Positions 5,834 through 25,782 of a stretch of DNA of 36,191 bases are shown here, piece after piece. How positions within the stretch are numbered: position 1 is the first letter of the stretch; every line of letters starts with the position of its first letter. The position numbers were made by a program, and so were the translations under genes. Source of the stretch: Spirochaetia bacterium (lineage in GTDB: Bacteria > Spirochaetota > Spirochaetia > Sphaerochaetales > Sphaerochaetaceae); contig SABI01000002.1 in assembly GCA_009929055.1 (NCBI GenBank), positions 1 to 36,191 of the forward strand, written 5' to 3'. A model generated the notes under the pieces. That model had not been told where the DNA came from. It saw only the letters and a list, made by a program, of their open reading frames with translations, and ran no database searches.

Positions 5834-5849
5834 GTGTCCAAAATTTTAC

Positions 5850-5879
5850 TTGACAGAAATAGTGTAGTTAAAGTAATTG
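5850..5879 (+). promoter_or_regulatory. Candidate promoter P4 for the modification block
   Basis: CTTGACA with TTGACA at 5850-5855, directly after the terminator; -10 box weak. Confidence 0.45.
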
Positions 5880-5905
5880 TATCTAATATAAACACAGGAG
5901 TAACA

Positions 5906-6526
5906 ATGAGAAGTTTTTTTGATTCAGATATATTGAAAAAGCTTGTTGAAAACGAACTGGACAGTAGTTTAGATAAGCTTACCCCCGAACAAAAGATAGA
6001 GGCATGCGCACAGCAAATTATAAAAGCTCTTGGACTTAATAAGGACAGCGAAGAATTGTTGGAAACCCCTTTTCGCATAGCTAAGATGTACTATAAAGAG
6101 TTATTTAGCTCTATAAATAAAGAGCCTGACGTAAAACTTACCTCGTTCAAGTCTAACTATGAACACTATATTACTATGACAGGTATTCCGTATTACAGTG
6201 TTTGTTCTCATCACTTTATGCCTTTTTTTGGAACGGTAGATATTGCCTATTTCCCCAAAAACGAAGATAGTAAAGTTTTGGGGCTGTCAAAATTTCCACG
6301 ATTAGTAAAATTCTTCTCTCGTAAACCTCAAGTACAGGAAGATTTTACTCAAGAGTTAGCTAAATATATCTATGAGCAGTTAAAACCTGAAGGGGTACTT
6401 ATTAGAGTTACTGGTTATCATACTTGTGTAGCTTCCAGAGGTGCTGAGGTTGAAGCTAAGGTTACTACGGAAGCAATGCTTGGTAACATTGATAAGAATG
6501 AAGTGTTACATCTTTGGAAGGCATAA
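5906..6526 (+). CDS. folE: GTP cyclohydrolase I (FolE-type)
   Basis: YYSVCSHHFMPFFG zinc motif, GLSKFPRLVKFFSRKPQVQEDFTQELA, GYHTCVASRG. Listed from 5834; ATG 5906 follows AGGAG. Confidence 0.88.
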   Translation: MRSFFDSDILKKLVENELDSSLDKLTPEQKIEACAQQIIKALGLNKDSEELLETPFRIAKMYYKELFSSINKEPDVKLTSFKSNYEHYITMTGIPYYSVCSHHFMPFFGTVDIAYFPKNEDSKVLGLSKFPRLVKFFSRKPQVQEDFTQELAKYIYEQLKPEGVLIRVTGYHTCVASRGAEVEAKVTTEAMLGNIDKNEVLHLWKA

Positions 6527-6529
6527 GAG

Positions 6530-7030
6530 ATGCTAAAAGACTCTATCAGACAGAATTTTTATTCATTTTTAAGTCATGAAGAGATTACTTGTCTTAATGT
6601 TTATTTTGAGAAACATAATCTTCTAAGATTAAACAAAGAAATCATTAAACTTGTAGAGGGAAAAGACTTAGAAGTATCTGATAAGACTTTTTATGACATT
6701 TGTCACTTTAATGATGCCTTACATAAAGCTAATAAGACATATTCAGATAAGGTATTTGTAGGCATAACTGAAGAGGCTTACAATTACTATTGTAAGTCTA
6801 AAGGGAAAACTGTATCACATAGAACTTTCTCTTTTGGATACACCTCTTTAGGGGATTGGAAACACTATATTGAATATACCCCTAAAACAGCAGTTGAAAG
6901 AGAGTTATTAAAGGGAAATGTTACTAAGTATTTACCTATAATCTTTCCAAAAGATAGAAACTTTAATGTTTCTGCATTTAATGAATATTGTATATTTTTA
7001 GAGGAGGTAGAAGATGGTCAAGAAAACTAA
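6530..7030 (+). CDS. Unknown protein between FolE and QueC
   Basis: 166 aa ORF, tightly packed in the operon. Confidence 0.75.
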   Translation: MLKDSIRQNFYSFLSHEEITCLNVYFEKHNLLRLNKEIIKLVEGKDLEVSDKTFYDICHFNDALHKANKTYSDKVFVGITEEAYNYYCKSKGKTVSHRTFSFGYTSLGDWKHYIEYTPKTAVERELLKGNVTKYLPIIFPKDRNFNVSAFNEYCIFLEEVEDGQEN

Positions 7031-7211
7031 GGAACAACTTGAGTGGGAAGCTCAGTATGATTTTGATACACTTGCACGAGCTGAGGAAATACGTAAAAAC
7101 AAACTTCGTCTTAGTAAGGCAGTTAAAGCAGGTAAAAAGAGGATAGCGGATCAAGAGAAAGCTTTAAAGGCTGCAAAGGCTGTTACGCACAAAGCGGGTA
7201 AGGGGAAATAG
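7014..7211 (+). CDS. Small lysine-rich basic protein
   Basis: 65 aa, C-terminus AGKKRIADQEKALKAAKAVTHKAGKGK; GGAGG upstream. Confidence 0.65.
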   Translation: MVKKTKEQLEWEAQYDFDTLARAEEIRKNKLRLSKAVKAGKKRIADQEKALKAAKAVTHKAGKGK

Positions 7212-7220
7212 TATTTAATT

Positions 7221-7892
7221 GTGAAGAAATCTCTTTTACTTTTTTCTAATGGAATAGATAGCTACATTGGAAAATATTTTTTGCGCCCCAATCTCTCAGT
7301 GTATTTAGATATGCAAACTAAATACTCTTTAGCGGAAAAACACTATATAAAGAAATTCCATAAGGATGTCATAGTTGATGAAGCTCTAACATTTTTAGGG
7401 GAACATGAAGAGTTATCGGGACACATAGAATATAGAAATTTATTCTTAACAATGTACTCTCTATTGAAGTATAGTCCAAACATAGTATATATTTGTGGGC
7501 TAAAAGATGATAAAGTTTCAGATAAGACCCCTGAAGTATTTGAGATGCTGTCTTCATTAGTTAGCAAAGTCTCTGGTAAAGACATAGTGATTACTTCTCC
7601 ATTTTGGGATAAGACTAAGGCAGATATCTGTAAGGAGTACATACAGGAAAAGCCTGTATCTGATTTGATGTATAAAACCTATTCTTGTTATGAAGGAGGT
7701 TTTACAGAGTGTGGAAGTTGCCCTGCATGTCTTAGAAAACGGGTAGCAATTTATGCAAGTTCGGGAGTGTTTATGCCTTTCTATAATTTGAACTTAGTTC
7801 AGCAATATGAATCCAATATAGGTAATTATGACCTACAAAGACAGAAGAATATGAAGGAGTATTTTTATAAAGTAAGGGAATTGGATAGATGA
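7221..7892 (+). CDS. queC: QueC-like 7-cyano-7-deazaguanine synthase (divergent)
   Basis: GTG start; N-terminal LLLFSNGIDS PP-loop-like motif; SDLMYKTYSCYEGGFTECGSCPACLRKRVAI matches the QueC zinc-cysteine motif. Confidence 0.78.
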   Translation: MKKSLLLFSNGIDSYIGKYFLRPNLSVYLDMQTKYSLAEKHYIKKFHKDVIVDEALTFLGEHEELSGHIEYRNLFLTMYSLLKYSPNIVYICGLKDDKVSDKTPEVFEMLSSLVSKVSGKDIVITSPFWDKTKADICKEYIQEKPVSDLMYKTYSCYEGGFTECGSCPACLRKRVAIYASSGVFMPFYNLNLVQQYESNIGNYDLQRQKNMKEYFYKVRELDR

Positions 7893-9373
7893 AGATAGTG
7901 TTGGCTGGTGCAGAATCTAATGACGCTCTAAAAGTTTTTAGACACAATCCTCCCCCCTCTGTTTTGGTATCTAATCTGTATTTACAGAAGAAATCTCCTT
8001 CAAAGATTAAGGAGATTTTAGAGACTTATAAAAGCTTAGGGTGTTGGGTTATTATAGATTCAGGAGCATTTACATTTCTTTCAAAATATGGAATATTAAG
8101 AACTGATAGAACTATTGAACAGTTTAGAGAGAAGTATAATTTACATAGAGTGGTATTAGAAGATTGGCAATACGATAAAGAAGAGTCCCAAAGAAGATTT
8201 GATAAAGAATTTGGAAAATACTTTGATGTGTGGTTATCTCATCTTGATTTGTATTATGAGTATTCCGATATGATTGCTGAATTAGATTTGGATGCTCTTG
8301 TAGGGATAGAAAGAATGGGGGAATTGAGACAAAAATACGAGGCATATAAAGATAAAATATGCTATACTCCCCATATAGGTATTGAGAAGGAGTTACGTCT
8401 ACAAACTCCAGAAGAGCATCAGTATTTAAAAGACTTACTATCTTCAGGAATTAAGTATTTGGGGTTAGGTAACTCCTCTCACAGCGATGTTGAACAATTT
8501 TTCAGTAGATATAAAGCTATAAAAGAGAATAAGATACGAGTACATGGATGGGCACAAACCAGTGCAGAAGCTATTACTACTCTCCCCTTTTTTAGCATAG
8601 ATAGTACTACTTGGCTATCTGCGGCAAAGTTTGGGGTTACGTTTGAGTATAAAGACGGGTGGGCTAAAATGAAGAGCCATGACCATACTCAAAAAGAAGC
8701 TTTTAGAAGAACTTGCCAAAAAGAGTGTGAAGAGAATGGAATAAATTTTGAAGATTTTTGTAATGATGAACCTTTTTCTGTTTTACAGTGGAGTGCTTTA
8801 CAGTGGATACGCATGGCAAAATATTATGAAAAAGATGTATCTCGTTCTTATTGGCTTACACAAGATGAAGCCTCTTCAGTTATAGAACAACAGAGGGAGG
8901 AGCAGGGATTAAATTCTTTAGTTGTTAGAGAAACTACTAGTGTTAATATCTTTAAAGATAATCGCCTTAAAATTAATAGACTTTGTAATTTGTGTGAGAT
9001 TGCTACTCAGTGTCCTCACTATATTCCAAATAATACGTGCATATTTCCAACTTCGGGGCTTTCTACAGATTTAACTTCTAAAGATTTAATGAAAGCTGTA
9101 ATTGACATGCAAATGGGCAGAGTAAATCAAGCGGTTTTTTCTGAAAGGATGAAGGGTGGAAGTGTAAACAGTAATGTAACTAAGGAAATTCAAACTCTCT
9201 CAAGAATGATAAAGGAATATGATGCTATGAATCAGGATGGTACAGGAATACATATTTCTGCTAAGGGTGAAGAGAGTGTAGGAGTTTTAGAGAGGCTTTT
9301 TGGAGGCAAAAGTGAGCCTAAAACAAAGACGGAAATTCTTCAGGCTGAAGAGGCGGAGATTATAGATGAATGA
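7889..9373 (+). CDS. dpdA: DpdA-like DNA-guanine transglycosylase (TGT superfamily) with C-terminal Cys-cluster/helical extension
   Basis: IIDSGAFT, VGIERMG, YTPHIGIE, YLGLGN, RVHGWAQT, SIDSTTW motifs; C-terminal CNLCEIATQCPHYIPNNTC extension absent from a minimal transglycosylase. Confidence 0.75.
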   Translation: MKIVLAGAESNDALKVFRHNPPPSVLVSNLYLQKKSPSKIKEILETYKSLGCWVIIDSGAFTFLSKYGILRTDRTIEQFREKYNLHRVVLEDWQYDKEESQRRFDKEFGKYFDVWLSHLDLYYEYSDMIAELDLDALVGIERMGELRQKYEAYKDKICYTPHIGIEKELRLQTPEEHQYLKDLLSSGIKYLGLGNSSHSDVEQFFSRYKAIKENKIRVHGWAQTSAEAITTLPFFSIDSTTWLSAAKFGVTFEYKDGWAKMKSHDHTQKEAFRRTCQKECEENGINFEDFCNDEPFSVLQWSALQWIRMAKYYEKDVSRSYWLTQDEASSVIEQQREEQGLNSLVVRETTSVNIFKDNRLKINRLCNLCEIATQCPHYIPNNTCIFPTSGLSTDLTSKDLMKAVIDMQMGRVNQAVFSERMKGGSVNSNVTKEIQTLSRMIKEYDAMNQDGTGIHISAKGEESVGVLERLFGGKSEPKTKTEILQAEEAEIIDE

Positions 9374-18591: not shown

Positions 18592-20322
18592 ATGGCTGAG
18601 TTTACATATCCTGGTCAATACATTACTGAAAAGTCTAGTGGAATTAGACTCCCTCAGTCTGTTTCTACGTCTATAGGGTGCGTTATAGGCATTTTTCCAA
18701 AAGGTGAGGTAGGTTCTCCGCAGCTTGTAACCTCTTACGAAGAGTTTAAAAGCTTGTTTTATGCTCCTCAAGATTTAAATTCCCTTCGACAAGTTAGAGG
18801 ATTCTTTGATGAAGGTGGTGGGAGTTTATATGTAATTAGAGTAGAAAATGATACTCTGGCGGCTGCTACTGTTGCTCTTCGTACAGACGGAGAATATACT
18901 CTTAGTGCCTCTGCAAAATCTAAAGGTGCTTGGGCTAATTCTGTTAGTGTTAAAGTTACAGGACAAGCAGTTGCTTCTTCTGCGTCTATGGAAGCTGTTC
19001 TTATAGAGGGGCTTCATGTTAATGTCCTTACCAGTGATGGTTGGGAAGTGGGACAGAGACTATTCAAAAATGTTTCAGGAACAAGAACTTACTTAGGAAA
19101 GCTTTCTGTAATTACTCGTACTTCTACAGGAGTAAAACTAACATTTGCCGCTCCAAGTGCTGCCGCTATTGGTCAAGGGGATATTATTGAAGCTGCGGGA
19201 GCTTTTGTTGAAGTTATTGATAGCTTAGGTAATGTAGTTGAATCTTATGAAAAAGTTACCTTTGAAGAGGGAACAAAAGGTTACTACAGAGTAAAAATTA
19301 ATGCTGTTTCACAATACATTCAACTTTCTGAAGCAGGTACATTACCTTCTACGACTATCGCTAATTATAGCTATGTACATGCGCAAGGAACTGCTACTTC
19401 TAAGATTTTGGTTTCTGGTTCAGATGGAACATACGATAAGCAAAGTTTCTTAGATGCTGTAGCTAATGTACTTCCTCAAATTACTACTTTAGCCAATGTG
19501 TTTTCTTGTTTAGAAGATTCTTCTTTAGTGGATGCAGACCATCAAGATATCTACAATGCTATTACGGTTCAGTGTGAGTTGTCTAAAAGATACATGAACC
19601 TTGTTCAAGTATCCTTGGCGGCAGAGAATATTAGTAGAGCTGCAACTATGGCTACTGCTGGTGGCATTATTGATTTTAGAAATGGTTTAGTATCTTCCAG
19701 ATTCTCCGTAGTGTATCAGGGCTATGTAGAGGCTTACAATGAAATCTCTAAGACTATGGATATCTGTCCCGCTACTGGGCATATTGCAGGTATCTGGTCT
19801 CGAATTTCGACAAATGTAGGTTACTGGCAAGTTCCTGCTGGAGTGGAAGCTAATTTTAGAACTACTAATAAAGTGTCTTGGTCACTTACTGATAATCAAC
19901 AGGGTGTACTTAATCCGCTTTCAATTAATGCGGTAAGATTCTTTAGCGGATATGGTCTGTTAGTATGGGGTGCAAGAACTCTCTCTAACAACACTGACTT
20001 CAGATATATTTCAGATAGTTTGACCTTCAACTTTGTAGAGCAGACTATTCTAAGTTCTAATCTGTGGGCAGTATTCAAACCCAATAATTCTGCACTTTGG
20101 TCTGAAATTGGGATTAATCTTGACCTGTTCCTTACTTCTCAATGGAGAGCTGGTGCTCTTAGAGGAGACTCTAAGTCTGAAGCTTTCTTTGTAAACTTTG
20201 GAAAAGATGTTACTTCAGAATATGACATTTTGCAGGGAATTGTAAATATTGAAGTGGGACTTGCTACTCAGAAGCCTGGAGAGTTTGTCCACTACACTAT
20301 TAGCCCTAAAGTAAACTTATAA
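18592..20322 (+). CDS. Contractile tail sheath protein
   Basis: N-terminus YPGQYITEKSSGIRLPQSVSTSIGCVIGIFPKGEVGSPQLVTSYEEFKSLF; C-terminal NFVEQTILSSNLWAVFKPNN...; 576 aa. Confidence 0.92.
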   Translation: MAEFTYPGQYITEKSSGIRLPQSVSTSIGCVIGIFPKGEVGSPQLVTSYEEFKSLFYAPQDLNSLRQVRGFFDEGGGSLYVIRVENDTLAAATVALRTDGEYTLSASAKSKGAWANSVSVKVTGQAVASSASMEAVLIEGLHVNVLTSDGWEVGQRLFKNVSGTRTYLGKLSVITRTSTGVKLTFAAPSAAAIGQGDIIEAAGAFVEVIDSLGNVVESYEKVTFEEGTKGYYRVKINAVSQYIQLSEAGTLPSTTIANYSYVHAQGTATSKILVSGSDGTYDKQSFLDAVANVLPQITTLANVFSCLEDSSLVDADHQDIYNAITVQCELSKRYMNLVQVSLAAENISRAATMATAGGIIDFRNGLVSSRFSVVYQGYVEAYNEISKTMDICPATGHIAGIWSRISTNVGYWQVPAGVEANFRTTNKVSWSLTDNQQGVLNPLSINAVRFFSGYGLLVWGARTLSNNTDFRYISDSLTFNFVEQTILSSNLWAVFKPNNSALWSEIGINLDLFLTSQWRAGALRGDSKSEAFFVNFGKDVTSEYDILQGIVNIEVGLATQKPGEFVHYTISPKVNL

Positions 20323-20333
20323 GGAGATAGATT

Positions 20334-20834
20334 ATGAGCGATATTAAAGACCTGCTTAGACGGTATAAATTTGAACTCGTAGATGGAGAATTCAATACTC
20401 TTGGTGGATTTTTGGGTATATCCCCAATTTCATTAGGAATTAGAACTTCTAAATATCGTGAAGGGGATGATGATAACTTAGAGGGGATTACTCTCCCTGG
20501 TCGTAGAATTACTGAACCGATTGAAATTCGTAGAGGATGTTTCGTTATTACTAATCCAGAAGATAGTGAATCTGATAAGATACATTATTGGATTAATAAG
20601 CTTCAGAAAGGTGAGGTTGCAGATGGTGAAATTTCTGAAGAGTTTGGTGGAGAATGGTATATTAGAGTTAAGAAGAAAACTACCAATGAATTTGGAAGAA
20701 TCTATAAGATTCTAAATCCAATCATCACTTTAGTAAGAACTGCTGAATTGGATTCTATGGATTCTGTAGATGATGTTGTTTGGATTGAATCTATTGTTAT
20801 TGAACATTCGGGAATTGATTTAGTTACTTTCTAA
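20334..20834 (+). CDS. Tail tube protein 1 (T4 gp19-like)
   Basis: LLRRYKFELVDGE...LPGRRITEPIEIRRGCF...HYWINKLQKGEV; directly after sheath. Confidence 0.78.
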   Translation: MSDIKDLLRRYKFELVDGEFNTLGGFLGISPISLGIRTSKYREGDDDNLEGITLPGRRITEPIEIRRGCFVITNPEDSESDKIHYWINKLQKGEVADGEISEEFGGEWYIRVKKKTTNEFGRIYKILNPIITLVRTAELDSMDSVDDVVWIESIVIEHSGIDLVTF

Positions 20835-21319
20835 TGAAAGACTATTTAAGAAAATACCGATTTAAAGTGTATATAGGTGGTGTAGCTGGTGCGGGATTTA
20901 ATTCTTGCACTGGCTTATCCGCTGGAAGCAGTTATACTCAAATTAGAGAGGCTGGAGCGTTGTCTCCTGTAAATCTGTTTGATGGATATAAATTCAAACC
21001 TATTATACTTTCAAAAGGATTGACAAGAACCGATAATGACGCTTATTTTTGGTGGGAAACTTCAGGTAGAATGTCTACTCCAGCAGCACTATTTAATATG
21101 CGTAACATAGTTATTGAAGTACATAGTCTTAGTGGTAAATCTATGAAACACCCTTTAATGCCTCCAGTTAAATACATAGTATATGGAGCGCAAGTAGAGG
21201 AAGTCAGATTTGGAGATTTACTTGCTGATGATGATAATGGAGAACTCATTGTAGTTCAAAGTATAGTATTAGTACATAGAGGCATTCAAAGAGTACAGAC
21301 AATGGGCGGATTAATCTAA
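20834..21319 (+). CDS. Tail tube-like protein 2
   Basis: YLRKYRFKVYIGGVAGAGFNSCTGLSAG...REAGALSPVNLFDGYKFKPIILSKGLT; gp19-family pattern. Confidence 0.72.
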   Translation: MKDYLRKYRFKVYIGGVAGAGFNSCTGLSAGSSYTQIREAGALSPVNLFDGYKFKPIILSKGLTRTDNDAYFWWETSGRMSTPAALFNMRNIVIEVHSLSGKSMKHPLMPPVKYIVYGAQVEEVRFGDLLADDDNGELIVVQSIVLVHRGIQRVQTMGGLI

Positions 21320-21333
21320 GGAGATTTAATACC

Positions 21334-22047
21334 ATGACGATTACACTAATAAAACCAGTTGAATTTAAGGGACAGACTATCAGAAGTATTGACCTAAATA
21401 CAGACATCACTGGACATGCAGAAAAAGTTCTTTTGGCAAGAGAGCCAAATAGAGCAAAGATAATGAATAAATTTTTAGCTATGCAAATAGCTCTTACTGA
21501 CCCCAACATTGAAGGATTAAACGAAGTAGAAAAATATTCACTTGTAAAAAGAATGTGTTCTGTGGATATTAAAAGAGCCTTATATGCCCTATACAAAGAT
21601 TTTAGAGATAATAAAATGTATATTGATATCCAATATACTACAAAAGAAGGAATATCAAAAAGTTTTTCTGGAGATGTAGAACTTCCTAATTTGAATTCTA
21701 CTTCTTTTTCCACAGAACCTATAGAGTTTTCTCTTTCTAAACCTCTTAAAATGTTTGAAGGGGAGTATTCTGATTTTATCCTCTATCCTATGACTGGACA
21801 TTTTAGTGAGCTTATTAACCAAGAAGAGAATCTTGCTAACATTAATACTTTGTTCATTAGCGAACTTATCAAAACTAAATGTGGTAAAACCATTCCTTTT
21901 GATATAGCAGAGGGCTTATCACTTAAAGTCAGAAATGAATTTCGTAAAGCGTTAGATAAAATATCTGACTTTTATCCACAAGTAACTGTGGAAGATGGAG
22001 TAGATACTTTTGACTACCCGCTTGATATACTTGATTTTTTTACATAA
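21334..22047 (+). CDS. Tail assembly chaperone (G-like, 0-frame product)
   Basis: 237 aa between tube and tape measure; ends at a frameshift signal. Confidence 0.72.
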   Translation: MTITLIKPVEFKGQTIRSIDLNTDITGHAEKVLLAREPNRAKIMNKFLAMQIALTDPNIEGLNEVEKYSLVKRMCSVDIKRALYALYKDFRDNKMYIDIQYTTKEGISKSFSGDVELPNLNSTSFSTEPIEFSLSKPLKMFEGEYSDFILYPMTGHFSELINQEENLANINTLFISELIKTKCGKTIPFDIAEGLSLKVRNEFRKALDKISDFYPQVTVEDGVDTFDYPLDILDFFT

Positions 22048-22229
22048 CTAAGAAGGGATTAAAAAGTCCCTTCTTAGTGACTACTCAGAAAGAGTTTTAT
22101 AATCAGATGTTATTTCTGAGTAAGAATTACAATATCTCGGTTTCTGATTACCTGAATTTAGGTAGAAAAGAAAAGGAGATTATACTGTCTATGGTTTTAG
22201 AGTCTACAGGAGAATTTGATGGACATTAA
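21334..22229 (+). CDS. Tail assembly chaperone GT-like -1 frameshift fusion (about 298 aa)
   Basis: Slippery TTTTTTT 22035-22041, then -1 frame open for 62 codons: YITKKGLKSPFLVTTQKEFYNQMLFLSKNYNISVSDYLNLGRKEKEIILSMVLESTGEFDGH*, stop 22227-22229. Confidence 0.8.
22035..22077 (+). promoter_or_regulatory. -1 programmed ribosomal frameshift signal
   Basis: T TTT TTT heptamer in correct phase, 6 nt spacer (acataa), perfect 11-bp hairpin CTAAGAAGGGA-ttaaaaag-TCCCTTCTTAG. Confidence 0.85.
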
Positions 22230-25200
22230 TATAAATCTTAAAGCCATTCAAGGTATAGATAGAGTAGGGGAATCCGTAACTGAAGTTATAAAACGACCCG
22301 CACGAAGAGTACCTGTATGGCAACAAGAGCAGAGAACTCTTTATCGTGAAGCTTTGTCCAGAAATAAGGGCTTAAATCCTGTAGAGCAAGCTGCCCTTAA
22401 TATTCGAAATAATTTAGAATATAATACCCCTCCAACTACGTTTGTTCCAAATTACTATCCTCCAAGATATGTTAGCGCATTAAGGGGAGATTATTCCTAT
22501 CAGGCTAATATCGGGGTAAGAAGTATTTATAGACAACCCTATTCACAAACTTCTTATAGAGTACCAAACAACCTTAGAAGGGAGTCTTATGGTATAGGTA
22601 GGGGAGAGGAAGCTGCTTACTTAAATAGAGTTAATCCAGCAAATACAAGTTATATACAAGACTCTGTAGGAAATATGACTTCCTCAAATTCTGGAAACCT
22701 TAAATTTGGTTTTTCCAGAGGGGTGAAAACTCCTTTTAATTTGTTTGAACCTGTTGGAGATACTGGTCGTGCAAGAGATTTTATGAGGGGGATTTTCCAT
22801 AAGGAATCTTCTGCACTATTTGCGGGGTCTGTAGGACTTCACTTTGCAAGTAGTTTATTGCTTTCTCCTGCGAGAGACTATACTCGTAGAGACCTTGACC
22901 CTGCAAAACAATTCCAAATGGAGACCATTTTAGCGGCTAACTCTTTTGGACTGGGAAGAGGCACTATTAACATGGAGCACTTGCCCCACTTCAAAAATGA
23001 AATAAAGAGAATGTCACTACCTTATTCTCAAGACCCTGTTGAAATTATGAAGAGCGCAAGACAACTTGCTCAAGCAGGTTTTAGTGGCAAAGATGTTTTA
23101 GGCTTAATGCCCTCTGCACTTAAATTTTCGGAACTAACTGGTGGTAAAGTAGGTATAATGCAATCTACTGATATTGCCCGTATGTTAGCAAGAAAGTTTA
23201 GAATAAATACCAATGACGAGGCAATGAACAAAGCTCTATCTCAAGTTTTTAGAGCTATTCAAGTTACCTCTTTGGATATTACTGATATAGGTACTGCTCT
23301 AAACTCCTTATCCTCAAGCCCTATAGAGTTCCCCTCTTCTCAGCTTACAGAATACTTGACTACTGTAGGTATGATGCGTAATATGGGTCAGATGCCCGCT
23401 CAAGCTGCCGCTACTACTGCTGGATTTATGAAATCAATTTCTCGTTTAGGGGCAGTAGAAAATCAAGCGGAACAAAGACTTAATTTAATGGAGTTCTTTA
23501 GAGAACAGGGAATACAGAGAAGAACTGTTAGACCTAACTATAGAATGTTTGCTCAAATGCAGTATTTTGGTACTGACTTTACTAAACAATTCTCTGTTAC
23601 CGAAGAAAATCTTTCCCGCTATCAGAACTACGGTAAGAAAGTTGGTGACTTAATTCCTTTACCTGAAATTATTGAAAAGGTTTCTGGACAACTTACTTAT
23701 AAAAGAGATGTACAAGGAAGAGTTGTAAGAGATTCTCAAGGAAAACCCGTTCCTTTCTCTGAATATGAGCGTTCTGCTGTAATGACACAGTTAGGGTTTT
23801 CTAATCAATTTAAAAACGTTGTATTAGGATACCAACAGATGCAGGAAGGGAGGGGTGTAGAGTGGAATGAATCTTTAGGCTCTTGGGTAGAAGAAGGAAA
23901 ACTTTTAGCTCGTGGTTACAATGACATTCTTAGAGAAATCATTAATAGCTCTAAAGCTCTTGATGTAGGCTTTAAGAATATGACAGGAACATTAATCCAA
24001 ACAGAAAATCGTCTTGCCTCTTCAAGAGTGGCTCTTAATACTACTATGGGCGAAGCTCTCTTACCCGCTAAAGTACAGTCTACACAAGTTAAGCTTGGGA
24101 TGCTTAATGCCATGAATGAGCTTGCGATGAAATATCCTACATCTACCGCAGCCGTCTCAGGAGGCATTGAGGGGCTATCTATGGGGCTTACTGGAGCTAA
24201 GGCTATTACCGATATGGCTGGCGGTAGTTTGATGGCTCTTGCTATGATTAAAACCCTTTCTACGAGAAGTGTTACTCTTGAAGAAGTTGAAGCCGCTAAT
24301 TTAGCGGGAAATACTTCAATGAGATTAGGAGACCTTACTTGGAATCGTTCCGCTGTAAAGTTTGGAAGAACTGCTCTGTTTGGTATGGGTTCAATTATAA
24401 AGGGATACTCTACTGGGTATTCTGCTTTTGCTGTAGGAGCAATGCAGGGAACTAATACAAGGGAAAATATTATCCAATCTACAGGTTTAGGCTTATTTAG
24501 TGGAATTACCGCTTTTGGTGGAATGCAAGCCTTAATGCACGGAAAGAAAATTAACATGTTTGGAAAATCCTTTTCCAATAAAAAAGTTGGTGGTGCTCTT
24601 TTAGCAGCTTCCCTTATCCCTGATTTAATGACAGGGGTAAGTGCAGCTCAATCTAATAAATATGTTAGAAATAACATGGAGCTTAGAGGAAAGTACAAAG
24701 ATGAATGGATGGCAAACCTGCTCTCTCAAGGTTACTTTTCTTTAGGAAGTGCTGGACAGGAGACATTAAGTTCGATTTTTGGAATTCCTACTGCTGAATT
24801 AAATAACATGATGGATGGAAAATTAGTAAATCCTAAATATGCAGAAACCACTTCTAATTATTTCAATACCTTGTTTTCAGGCTCTTTAGAAGATAACTTT
24901 GCTACACTCATAGCAAGTACTCCCGAATTTGCTAAAATAGCAAGTATAAGAAGTAGAAAGGCTAATGACTTTAAAAACATTACTCATGGCGGATATTTGA
25001 CTCCCTCTGTAGTGCAAATGATGAAAGAGCATGGTGGTGGAGACATCCGTTTAGGTGCAAAGAATTTCTTAAGGGATGCCAACATTACTGAAATTACAGA
25101 TAAAAGAGCCATTAAAACCTGGTATAAAGGTTTACCTCAAGTAGAAAAAAATCTGGTTACTGGGGAGAGAAGAAGTCTTGCAGGGCTTATGTTTCAAAAC

Positions 25201-25782
25201 TTAGTTTCTCATGCAGGTACAGGGCTTATTTCAGGAGGAGGATTAGGTGCTCTTGTTGGGGGGGCGGTAACTATCCCTGTAGGTGGAATTGGATCAATAC
25301 CTGTAGGTGTTGCTTTAGGTGCAGCAGGGGCAATAGGAGGAGCTGTATTTGGTATGGGAAGAGGAATTTATCAATACGCTAACCAACAAAAATACCCTAA
25401 AGCAATATATGGAATTTCTGGAGGTCAGGGACATTTTATAGGTGGTCAAGATATTGATGTAGCTAAAGTTCAGTATGCTGCGGTTAACGCTATTGATCCG
25501 AAACAGTTAAGTGAGCTTACTTATCAAAACCAACAATTAGCCCTTACACAGAATAGCGTAGATGCTTTAGATACAATTAACAAAAACCTTATTGAGTTTA
25601 TGAAAGCCCTTATGGGCGGAGGCTCTGGAAAAAATCAGGTCACTGTTAATCAAATATTCAAATCTGCTGATAGAGAGCTTCTTAAACAGCAGGCTTATCA
25701 GTTAGGAGATATTGTAATAAAAAATCTTGACAGAATTAACCAGCGCAGCTTTAATGACCTAAAACTTGTCGAGGCGCAATAA
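22219..25782 (+). CDS. Tail tape measure protein
   Basis: About 1187 aa; ATG 22219 after AGGAG (listed TTG 22216); glycine-rich hydrophobic segment near the C-terminus; position after chaperone. Confidence 0.85.
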   Translation: MDININLKAIQGIDRVGESVTEVIKRPARRVPVWQQEQRTLYREALSRNKGLNPVEQAALNIRNNLEYNTPPTTFVPNYYPPRYVSALRGDYSYQANIGVRSIYRQPYSQTSYRVPNNLRRESYGIGRGEEAAYLNRVNPANTSYIQDSVGNMTSSNSGNLKFGFSRGVKTPFNLFEPVGDTGRARDFMRGIFHKESSALFAGSVGLHFASSLLLSPARDYTRRDLDPAKQFQMETILAANSFGLGRGTINMEHLPHFKNEIKRMSLPYSQDPVEIMKSARQLAQAGFSGKDVLGLMPSALKFSELTGGKVGIMQSTDIARMLARKFRINTNDEAMNKALSQVFRAIQVTSLDITDIGTALNSLSSSPIEFPSSQLTEYLTTVGMMRNMGQMPAQAAATTAGFMKSISRLGAVENQAEQRLNLMEFFREQGIQRRTVRPNYRMFAQMQYFGTDFTKQFSVTEENLSRYQNYGKKVGDLIPLPEIIEKVSGQLTYKRDVQGRVVRDSQGKPVPFSEYERSAVMTQLGFSNQFKNVVLGYQQMQEGRGVEWNESLGSWVEEGKLLARGYNDILREIINSSKALDVGFKNMTGTLIQTENRLASSRVALNTTMGEALLPAKVQSTQVKLGMLNAMNELAMKYPTSTAAVSGGIEGLSMGLTGAKAITDMAGGSLMALAMIKTLSTRSVTLEEVEAANLAGNTSMRLGDLTWNRSAVKFGRTALFGMGSIIKGYSTGYSAFAVGAMQGTNTRENIIQSTGLGLFSGITAFGGMQALMHGKKINMFGKSFSNKKVGGALLAASLIPDLMTGVSAAQSNKYVRNNMELRGKYKDEWMANLLSQGYFSLGSAGQETLSSIFGIPTAELNNMMDGKLVNPKYAETTSNYFNTLFSGSLEDNFATLIASTPEFAKIASIRSRKANDFKNITHGGYLTPSVVQMMKEHGGGDIRLGAKNFLRDANITEITDKRAIKTWYKGLPQVEKNLVTGERRSLAGLMFQNLVSHAGTGLISGGGLGALVGGAVTIPVGGIGSIPVGVALGAAGAIGGAVFGMGRGIYQYANQQKYPKAIYGISGGQGHFIGGQDIDVAKVQYAAVNAIDPKQLSELTYQNQQLALTQNSVDALDTINKNLIEFMKALMGGGSGKNQVTVNQIFKSADRELLKQQAYQLGDIVIKNLDRINQRSFNDLKLVEAQ

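Follow-up and report, generated by a model that had tools for sequence, protein, structure and literature searches.

The window analyzed here, a 36,191-nucleotide stretch of DNA corresponding to contig C734 of an 831-contig MAG, carries a contractile-tailed phage encoding a terminase, a portal, a major capsid protein (MCP), a tail sheath, two gp19-like tube proteins, a tape-measure protein, a CIS_tube-like protein, and a baseplate wedge. On the forward strand, the tail sheath gene (18592–20322; PHROG 23, 1.8e-47) is followed by two gp19-like tube genes (20334–20834, Pfam PF06841, 2.1e-6, just under the cut-off; and 20834–21319, PF06841, 3.3e-12), by an ORF of 237 amino acids (21334–22047), and by the tape-measure gene (22219–25782; PHROG 28 tail length tape measure, 4.4e-8). 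Given its location between the tube and tape-measure genes and profile comparison with its counterparts in relatives, the 237-aa ORF is predicted to encode G (TAC-N), the short form of the tail assembly chaperone. The gene order is therefore sheath, tube, G, gap, and tape measure, and the 171 nt between G and the tape-measure start form by far the largest gap in the tail module, where all other gaps are 14 nt or less. The two tube genes adjoin each other, while most IMG/VR relatives seem to have a single tube-sized ORF, and a very strong stem (z = -6.6) is located within the start of the second tube gene (20876–20923). Beside the terminase, at 5834–9373, the window also carries queuosine/preQ0-type genes (GTP cyclohydrolase, a QueC-like gene, and tRNA-guanine transglycosylase).

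The 3' end of G reads GAT TTT TTT ACA TAA, with the stop codon at 22045–22047, and contains a slippery heptamer, T TTT TTT (22035–22041, forward strand), that is in phase for tandem -1 slippage, with the end of the stop codon 12 nt farther on. In-phase X_XXY_YYZ motifs occur at 65 of 10,236 codons and T TTT TTT at three; the two further T TTT TTT runs, at 5914 and 6223, are both in the GTP cyclohydrolase ORF. Downstream of the heptamer is a predicted stimulatory stem-loop (22047–22078, forward strand) with 12 uninterrupted Watson-Crick pairs (22047–22058 with 22067–22078) or, as RNA, 14 pairs (22047–22060/22065–22078) including one G.U and closed by an AAAA loop. The original prediction described the end of the ORF and the heptamer with its phase exactly as we find them. 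Its 11-bp hairpin (22048–22058/22067–22077) has both arms in place but is in reality 12 bp long; the stem begins one base earlier, at 22047, and the spacer is therefore 5 nt (22042–22046), the 6 nt originally given being correct only if 11 pairs are counted. Perfect stems of at least 11 bp appear 0.1 times per 36 kb in first-order Markov sequences of the contig, and folding downstream of the heptamer is far stronger than in dinucleotide shuffles, with z values of -5.9 (50 nt) and -6.7 (90 nt). The site has the dnaX-type combination of a heptamer and a stem-loop approximately 5–8 nt downstream. A second stem of 10 bp (22082–22091/22113–22122, spanning 22082–22122 on the forward strand) is found close downstream and has a putative role. 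Inspection by eye of 22015–22034 showed no Shine-Dalgarno-like stimulator approximately 10 nt upstream, and neither an Rfam family nor a tRNA was found at the locus. We also considered the stem as a terminator and rejected it, as there is no terminator-like T run after the stem and no terminator-like site there.

As originally predicted, the -1 frame stays open over 22035–22229 (62 codons) and runs over the tape-measure ATG at 22219. This frame would provide a T extension (22041–22229, forward strand) of 62 amino acids and a stop, YITKKGLKSPFLV...GEFDGH, whose end overlaps the tape-measure start by 11 nt, and the predicted GT fusion is 298 aa long. A frame stays open for 62 codons at 0.4% of random-sequence positions; for the -1 frame of real ORFs, the count is 23 of 7,994 positions. 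By codon log-likelihood, the -1 frame scores +0.15 per codon, compared with 0.20 +/- 0.07 for true ORFs and -1.02 +/- 0.42 out of frame; the T extension is written in the phage's own codon usage. It had also been suggested that the extension has no start codon, which is only loosely true: GTG 22077, within the stem, and ATG 22107 are both in frame, but both are located past the slip site. The structural model of the extension has three helices (pLDDT 73), and a PDB fold search with this model gave no match.

Direct searches of phages, IMG/VR, and 199 related genomes revealed no homologue of either protein. Single-sequence scans of IMG/VR with the portal and the MCP gave no match, nor did tape-measure and CIS_tube searches in phages, and a sheath scan of genome contigs returned distant loci only. 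None of the 80 loci from a scan with an MCP alignment had a sheath match in its fetched stretch, and these were therefore of no use for comparing tail loci. Relatives were instead obtained via a sheath alignment, which led to a broad IMG/VR family, and MCP similarity added the Streptomyces phages LuckySocke, pSt2308, and BRock, the Bacteroides phage BS162P1, and the gut contig MT835482. All relatives with callable G and tape-measure ORFs share the order of sheath, tube, G, gap, and tape measure, and in all of them the gap is open in another frame. Conservation was judged on distant relatives only, and the frame is -1 in part of them but +1 in the rest. The original prediction had called for a check on conservation of the heptamer and the -1 frame; the alternate frame proved open in the syntenic relatives, and every distinct locus of the -1 group carries a canonical heptamer. 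In the nearest -1 group this is A AAT TTT (L134, L135-L139, L140, L141, and L221), where the window has T TTT TTT; it is AAATTTTTTA in L172, and T TTT TTC in L004, L005, L006, L010, L041, L043, and L239. L134, L135-L139, L140, L141, L172, and L221 share with the window the 12-nt distance between the heptamer and the end of the stop codon.

The second group of relatives, which includes the Streptomyces phages, has the T domain in the +1 frame and no heptamer. In LuckySocke, pSt2308, and BRock (L042:6614-7721, L044:6460-7534, and L045 on the reverse strand), the site is near CTC TGA or CTC TAA, and the T domain has no start codon at its beginning and is therefore unannotated or mis-started. In the gut phages BS162P1 (L041:16311-16610) and MT835482 (L043:16062-16364), T TTT TTC is located 15 nt before the end of the G stop codon, the junction has an ATGA overlap, and a stem of 9–12 bp that differs in sequence between the two lies approximately 40 nt downstream. 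Long stems follow the heptamer directly in L134 (z = -8.1) and L140 (z = -3.5, both over 90 nt), downstream folding is weaker in L172 and L135, and no downstream structure was found over 90 nt in L141, L004, and L010. In an ungapped comparison of L134 with L140, 19 pairs are kept, of which five carry changes in both partners (column-shuffle z = -2.7), which is no more than suggestive. The +1 relatives have no consistent downstream structure.

The G proteins of nine of ten relatives tested match the Pfam family T4_baseplate (PF12322; T4 gp26/gp51) at 1e-22 to 3e-4, and L041 matches at 0.018. Window G has no zinc-ribbon cysteines and no Pfam match up to an E value of 0.1, the PF12322 cut-off not being reached, and a PF12322 scan of its own genome gave no match at the window G locus. 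When compared with the profile of the relatives' G proteins, window G aligns with an hhalign E of 0.002, a score reached by none of 4,000 shuffles, and the alignment runs up to the slip codons (lDFF ~ vNFL). The similarity of window T to the relatives' T is weak (E = 0.0064), with 11 of 4,000 shuffles scoring as high and a rank of 2 among approximately 414 natural fragments. Together, these comparisons indicate that both halves of the window locus have a weak yet significant relationship to the syntenic family. Among the relatives, T matches DUF6760 (PF20546) in L140 (2.5e-6, over the cut-off) and in L134 (0.0011, below it); window T gave no match to this family. The model of window G has a pLDDT of 68, with a C-terminal domain at 82–95, and its match in BFVD is to T4-like baseplate-hub assembly proteins (2.6e-5). 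This match is not independent because the alignment behind the model included PF12322 relatives. Alignment rows from annotated records were left out of the modeling. In the PDB, the top match was the HK97 tail assembly chaperone, which is weak (prob 0.60, E 0.6). Placement of the window in a tree of G proteins was not supported, and its branch is very long.

With this, we consider it very probable that the window contains a G/GT tail-assembly-chaperone locus of a contractile-tailed phage that uses a -1 ribosomal frameshift, slippage being what we infer from the sequence. Most ribosomes would terminate at the TAA and release G, while a minority would pause on TTT TTT against the stem, the base of which is 5–6 nt downstream, slip back by one base from TTT to TTT in both the P and A sites, and read 62 further codons to produce the GT fusion. 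The slip would set the ratio of G to GT, with GT being the rarer form, and both proteins may coat the tape-measure protein while T recruits the tube subunit, as in lambda (PMC5009743).

The main rival to this reading is transcriptional slippage, in which RNA polymerase would add a U on the T7 run and thereby yield the same fusion protein. The T7 run is a possible slippage site, and E. coli genes contain fewer UUUUUUU runs than expected, perhaps owing to this very process (PMC4066793). However, the nearest -1 relatives carry A AAT TTT, which contains no long homopolymer, and a strong stem 5–6 nt downstream fits ribosomal frameshifting, so that we regard transcriptional slippage as improbable. 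It is very improbable that T is translated alone by reinitiation or coupling from an internal start, without any fusion. In-frame starts are present, and the two gut phages have their ATGA overlap at the same junction, but GTG 22077 is buried in the stem, ATG 22107, preceded at 12 nt by nothing better than a weak AAGAG, would cost the protein 22 residues, and the gut phages also retain T TTT TTC 15 nt before the stop codon. Lower yet stands the proposal that G and T were once a single gene, split by a mutation in the T run or by a misassembly there. Homopolymers do invite errors, and the source is a MAG of 831 contigs, but numerous independent relatives have the same break at the corresponding position, in other sequences and in both directions, and the stop codon, stem, and heptamer are spaced like a frameshift signal. 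That the gap is non-coding, its open frame fortuitous, and its admittedly strong stem a terminator or processing signal can practically be dismissed, as the -1 frame has the codon likelihood of real genes, window T is related to the relatives' T, and the stem lacks the T run of a terminator.

The frameshift in tail-chaperone genes, of which lambda gpG/gpGT is an example, is conserved (Xu, Hendrix and Duda 2004; reviewed in PMC5009743). The window locus shares with lambda its position between tube and tape-measure genes, a -1 slip site near the end of G, a T domain that would be made only in the fusion, and an overlap of T with the tape-measure start. The lambda-like reading of the original prediction is upheld by this synteny, by the alternate-frame extension in relatives, and by the relatedness of T. 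However, window G is remotely related to the T4 gp26/gp51 family and is not lambda-like, its heptamer T TTT TTT is not that of lambda, and a strong stem-loop is located 5 nt downstream. A -1 shift in a tail chaperone gene is also found in the siphophage SPP1, the chaperone of which belongs to a different family. In SPP1, the shift occurs at UUUUUUC in gp17.5/17.5* (PMC6316719). The original prediction had regarded the strong downstream stem as a departure from the known class, which cannot be maintained; downstream structures at such phage sites have been described (PMC3483164), and a conserved hairpin has been predicted in three of five phage clusters (PMC4066793).

The T4-like tail assembly chaperones are gp26/gp51 (Vladimirov, Gautam and Davidson 2022, as cited in PMC12846349 and PMC10885494), and T4 has been named as the exception among long-tailed phages with regard to tail-chaperone frameshifting (PMC5009743). 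In some T4-like phages, frameshifting is replaced by two genes, a short one and a separate one for the long fusion (PMC10885494). The relatives' G proteins score as PF12322 and window G aligns remotely with them, while differing from gp26/gp51 in the absent zinc-ribbon cysteines and in escaping detection by PF12322. The TAC locus of Pakpunavirus Adele and the Vandenendeviridae also combines a contractile tail with a poly-T slippery motif, and its -1 frame is conserved and routinely mis-annotated; the motif there is GTTTTT, and the passages of PMC12846349 that describe it mention no stem-loop. The E. coli dnaX signal likewise combines a heptamer with a stem-loop of approximately 11 bp closely downstream, but its A_AAA_AAG heptamer and upstream Shine-Dalgarno stimulator are both absent from the window, and dnaX frameshifting, which is very efficient, serves a different use (PMC5009743). 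As the G/GT class, poly-T -1 sites, and downstream stems are all known, the window represents a divergent addition to the G/GT class, and what is new here is a divergent G/GT locus with a dnaX-like stem as its putative stimulator.

What looks like a comparable arrangement was found outside the window, in loci resembling those of contractile injection systems (CIS), bacterial injection machines that derive from phage tails. DUF6760 is present in 14 of 15 searched genomes of the MAG's class with sheath matches, mostly on the sheath-bearing contig, and a Pfam check of two of these loci identified CIS_tube, LysM, and an AAA ATPase in one (L263) and a sheath in the other (L264). In all 14 loci of this class examined, an upstream ORF overlaps DUF6760, which is in its -1 frame, and the sequence at their junction is (C)NGGGGGA[A/G]nnnTA[A/G]GCC, followed by a stem of approximately 12 pairs. 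In two loci the upstream ORF matches PF12322, above the cut-off in G315 (8.3e-8 and 2.6e-8) and below it in G242 (0.002), and that of L264 also has a weak match to Mu gp41. Covariation in the stem is 0.273 compared with 0.168 +/- 0.022, above all 500 shuffles and with much lower values in slid controls, and cells with double changes number 12 where 5.2 are expected. Three further loci, found elsewhere in the phylum, repeat this geometry with stems of another sequence, so that across the MAG loci (L246-L259 and L267-L269) a -1 DUF6760 follows a near-invariant G5 run in 17 of 17, mostly with a stem downstream.

On plasmids, a run of at least five G precedes DUF6760 in the -1 frame in eight of nine loci (L270-L276 and L278), which belong to Actinomycetota, Cyanobacteriota, and Pseudomonadota; the ninth, from the archaeon Haloferax, has no such G run. 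Of these eight, most have a clear stem directly downstream; it is weak in Streptomyces YIM 121038, while in an Embleya plasmid the G run is farther upstream of the stop codon and a stem directly downstream could not be made out. In two of the nine plasmid records the upstream ORF is labeled 'phage tail assembly protein' beside a separate DUF6760; a third record uses this label but has no entry for DUF6760, and three others annotate nothing at this position. These loci look like a programmed frameshift cassette. We think it likely that an alternate-frame T is a shared module of contractile tails, and that bacterial CIS also make G/GT by -1 frameshifting. In the CIS-like loci of the MAG's class and phylum and of the Actinomycetota, Cyanobacteriota, and Pseudomonadota plasmids, the overlapping zinc-ribbon 'phage tail assembly protein' would then gain DUF6760 as its C-terminal domain through a frameshift, with the slip on the near-invariant G5 (CNGGGGGA), in most cases followed by a stem of varying sequence with compensatory changes. 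Although earlier work is possible, the literature searched contained no mention of DUF6760 and no report of frameshifting in contractile injection systems, and this lead is more novel than the finding in the window itself.

If this reading of the CIS loci is true, DUF6760 is currently either overlooked in annotations or listed as a gene of its own, and heterologous expression of CIS or recoding of their genes must keep the slip site. Moreover, if CIS need a chaperone ratio set by frameshifting, the arrangement bears on how their length is set. For the uncultured phage family, the annotation can be corrected to G and GT in place of one gene and a gap. A chaperone lineage related to T4 gp26/gp51 apparently uses frameshifting, in contrast with the naming of T4 as the exception (PMC5009743), and the occurrence of -1 and +1 directions within this one lineage offers a natural series on the replacement of slip sites.
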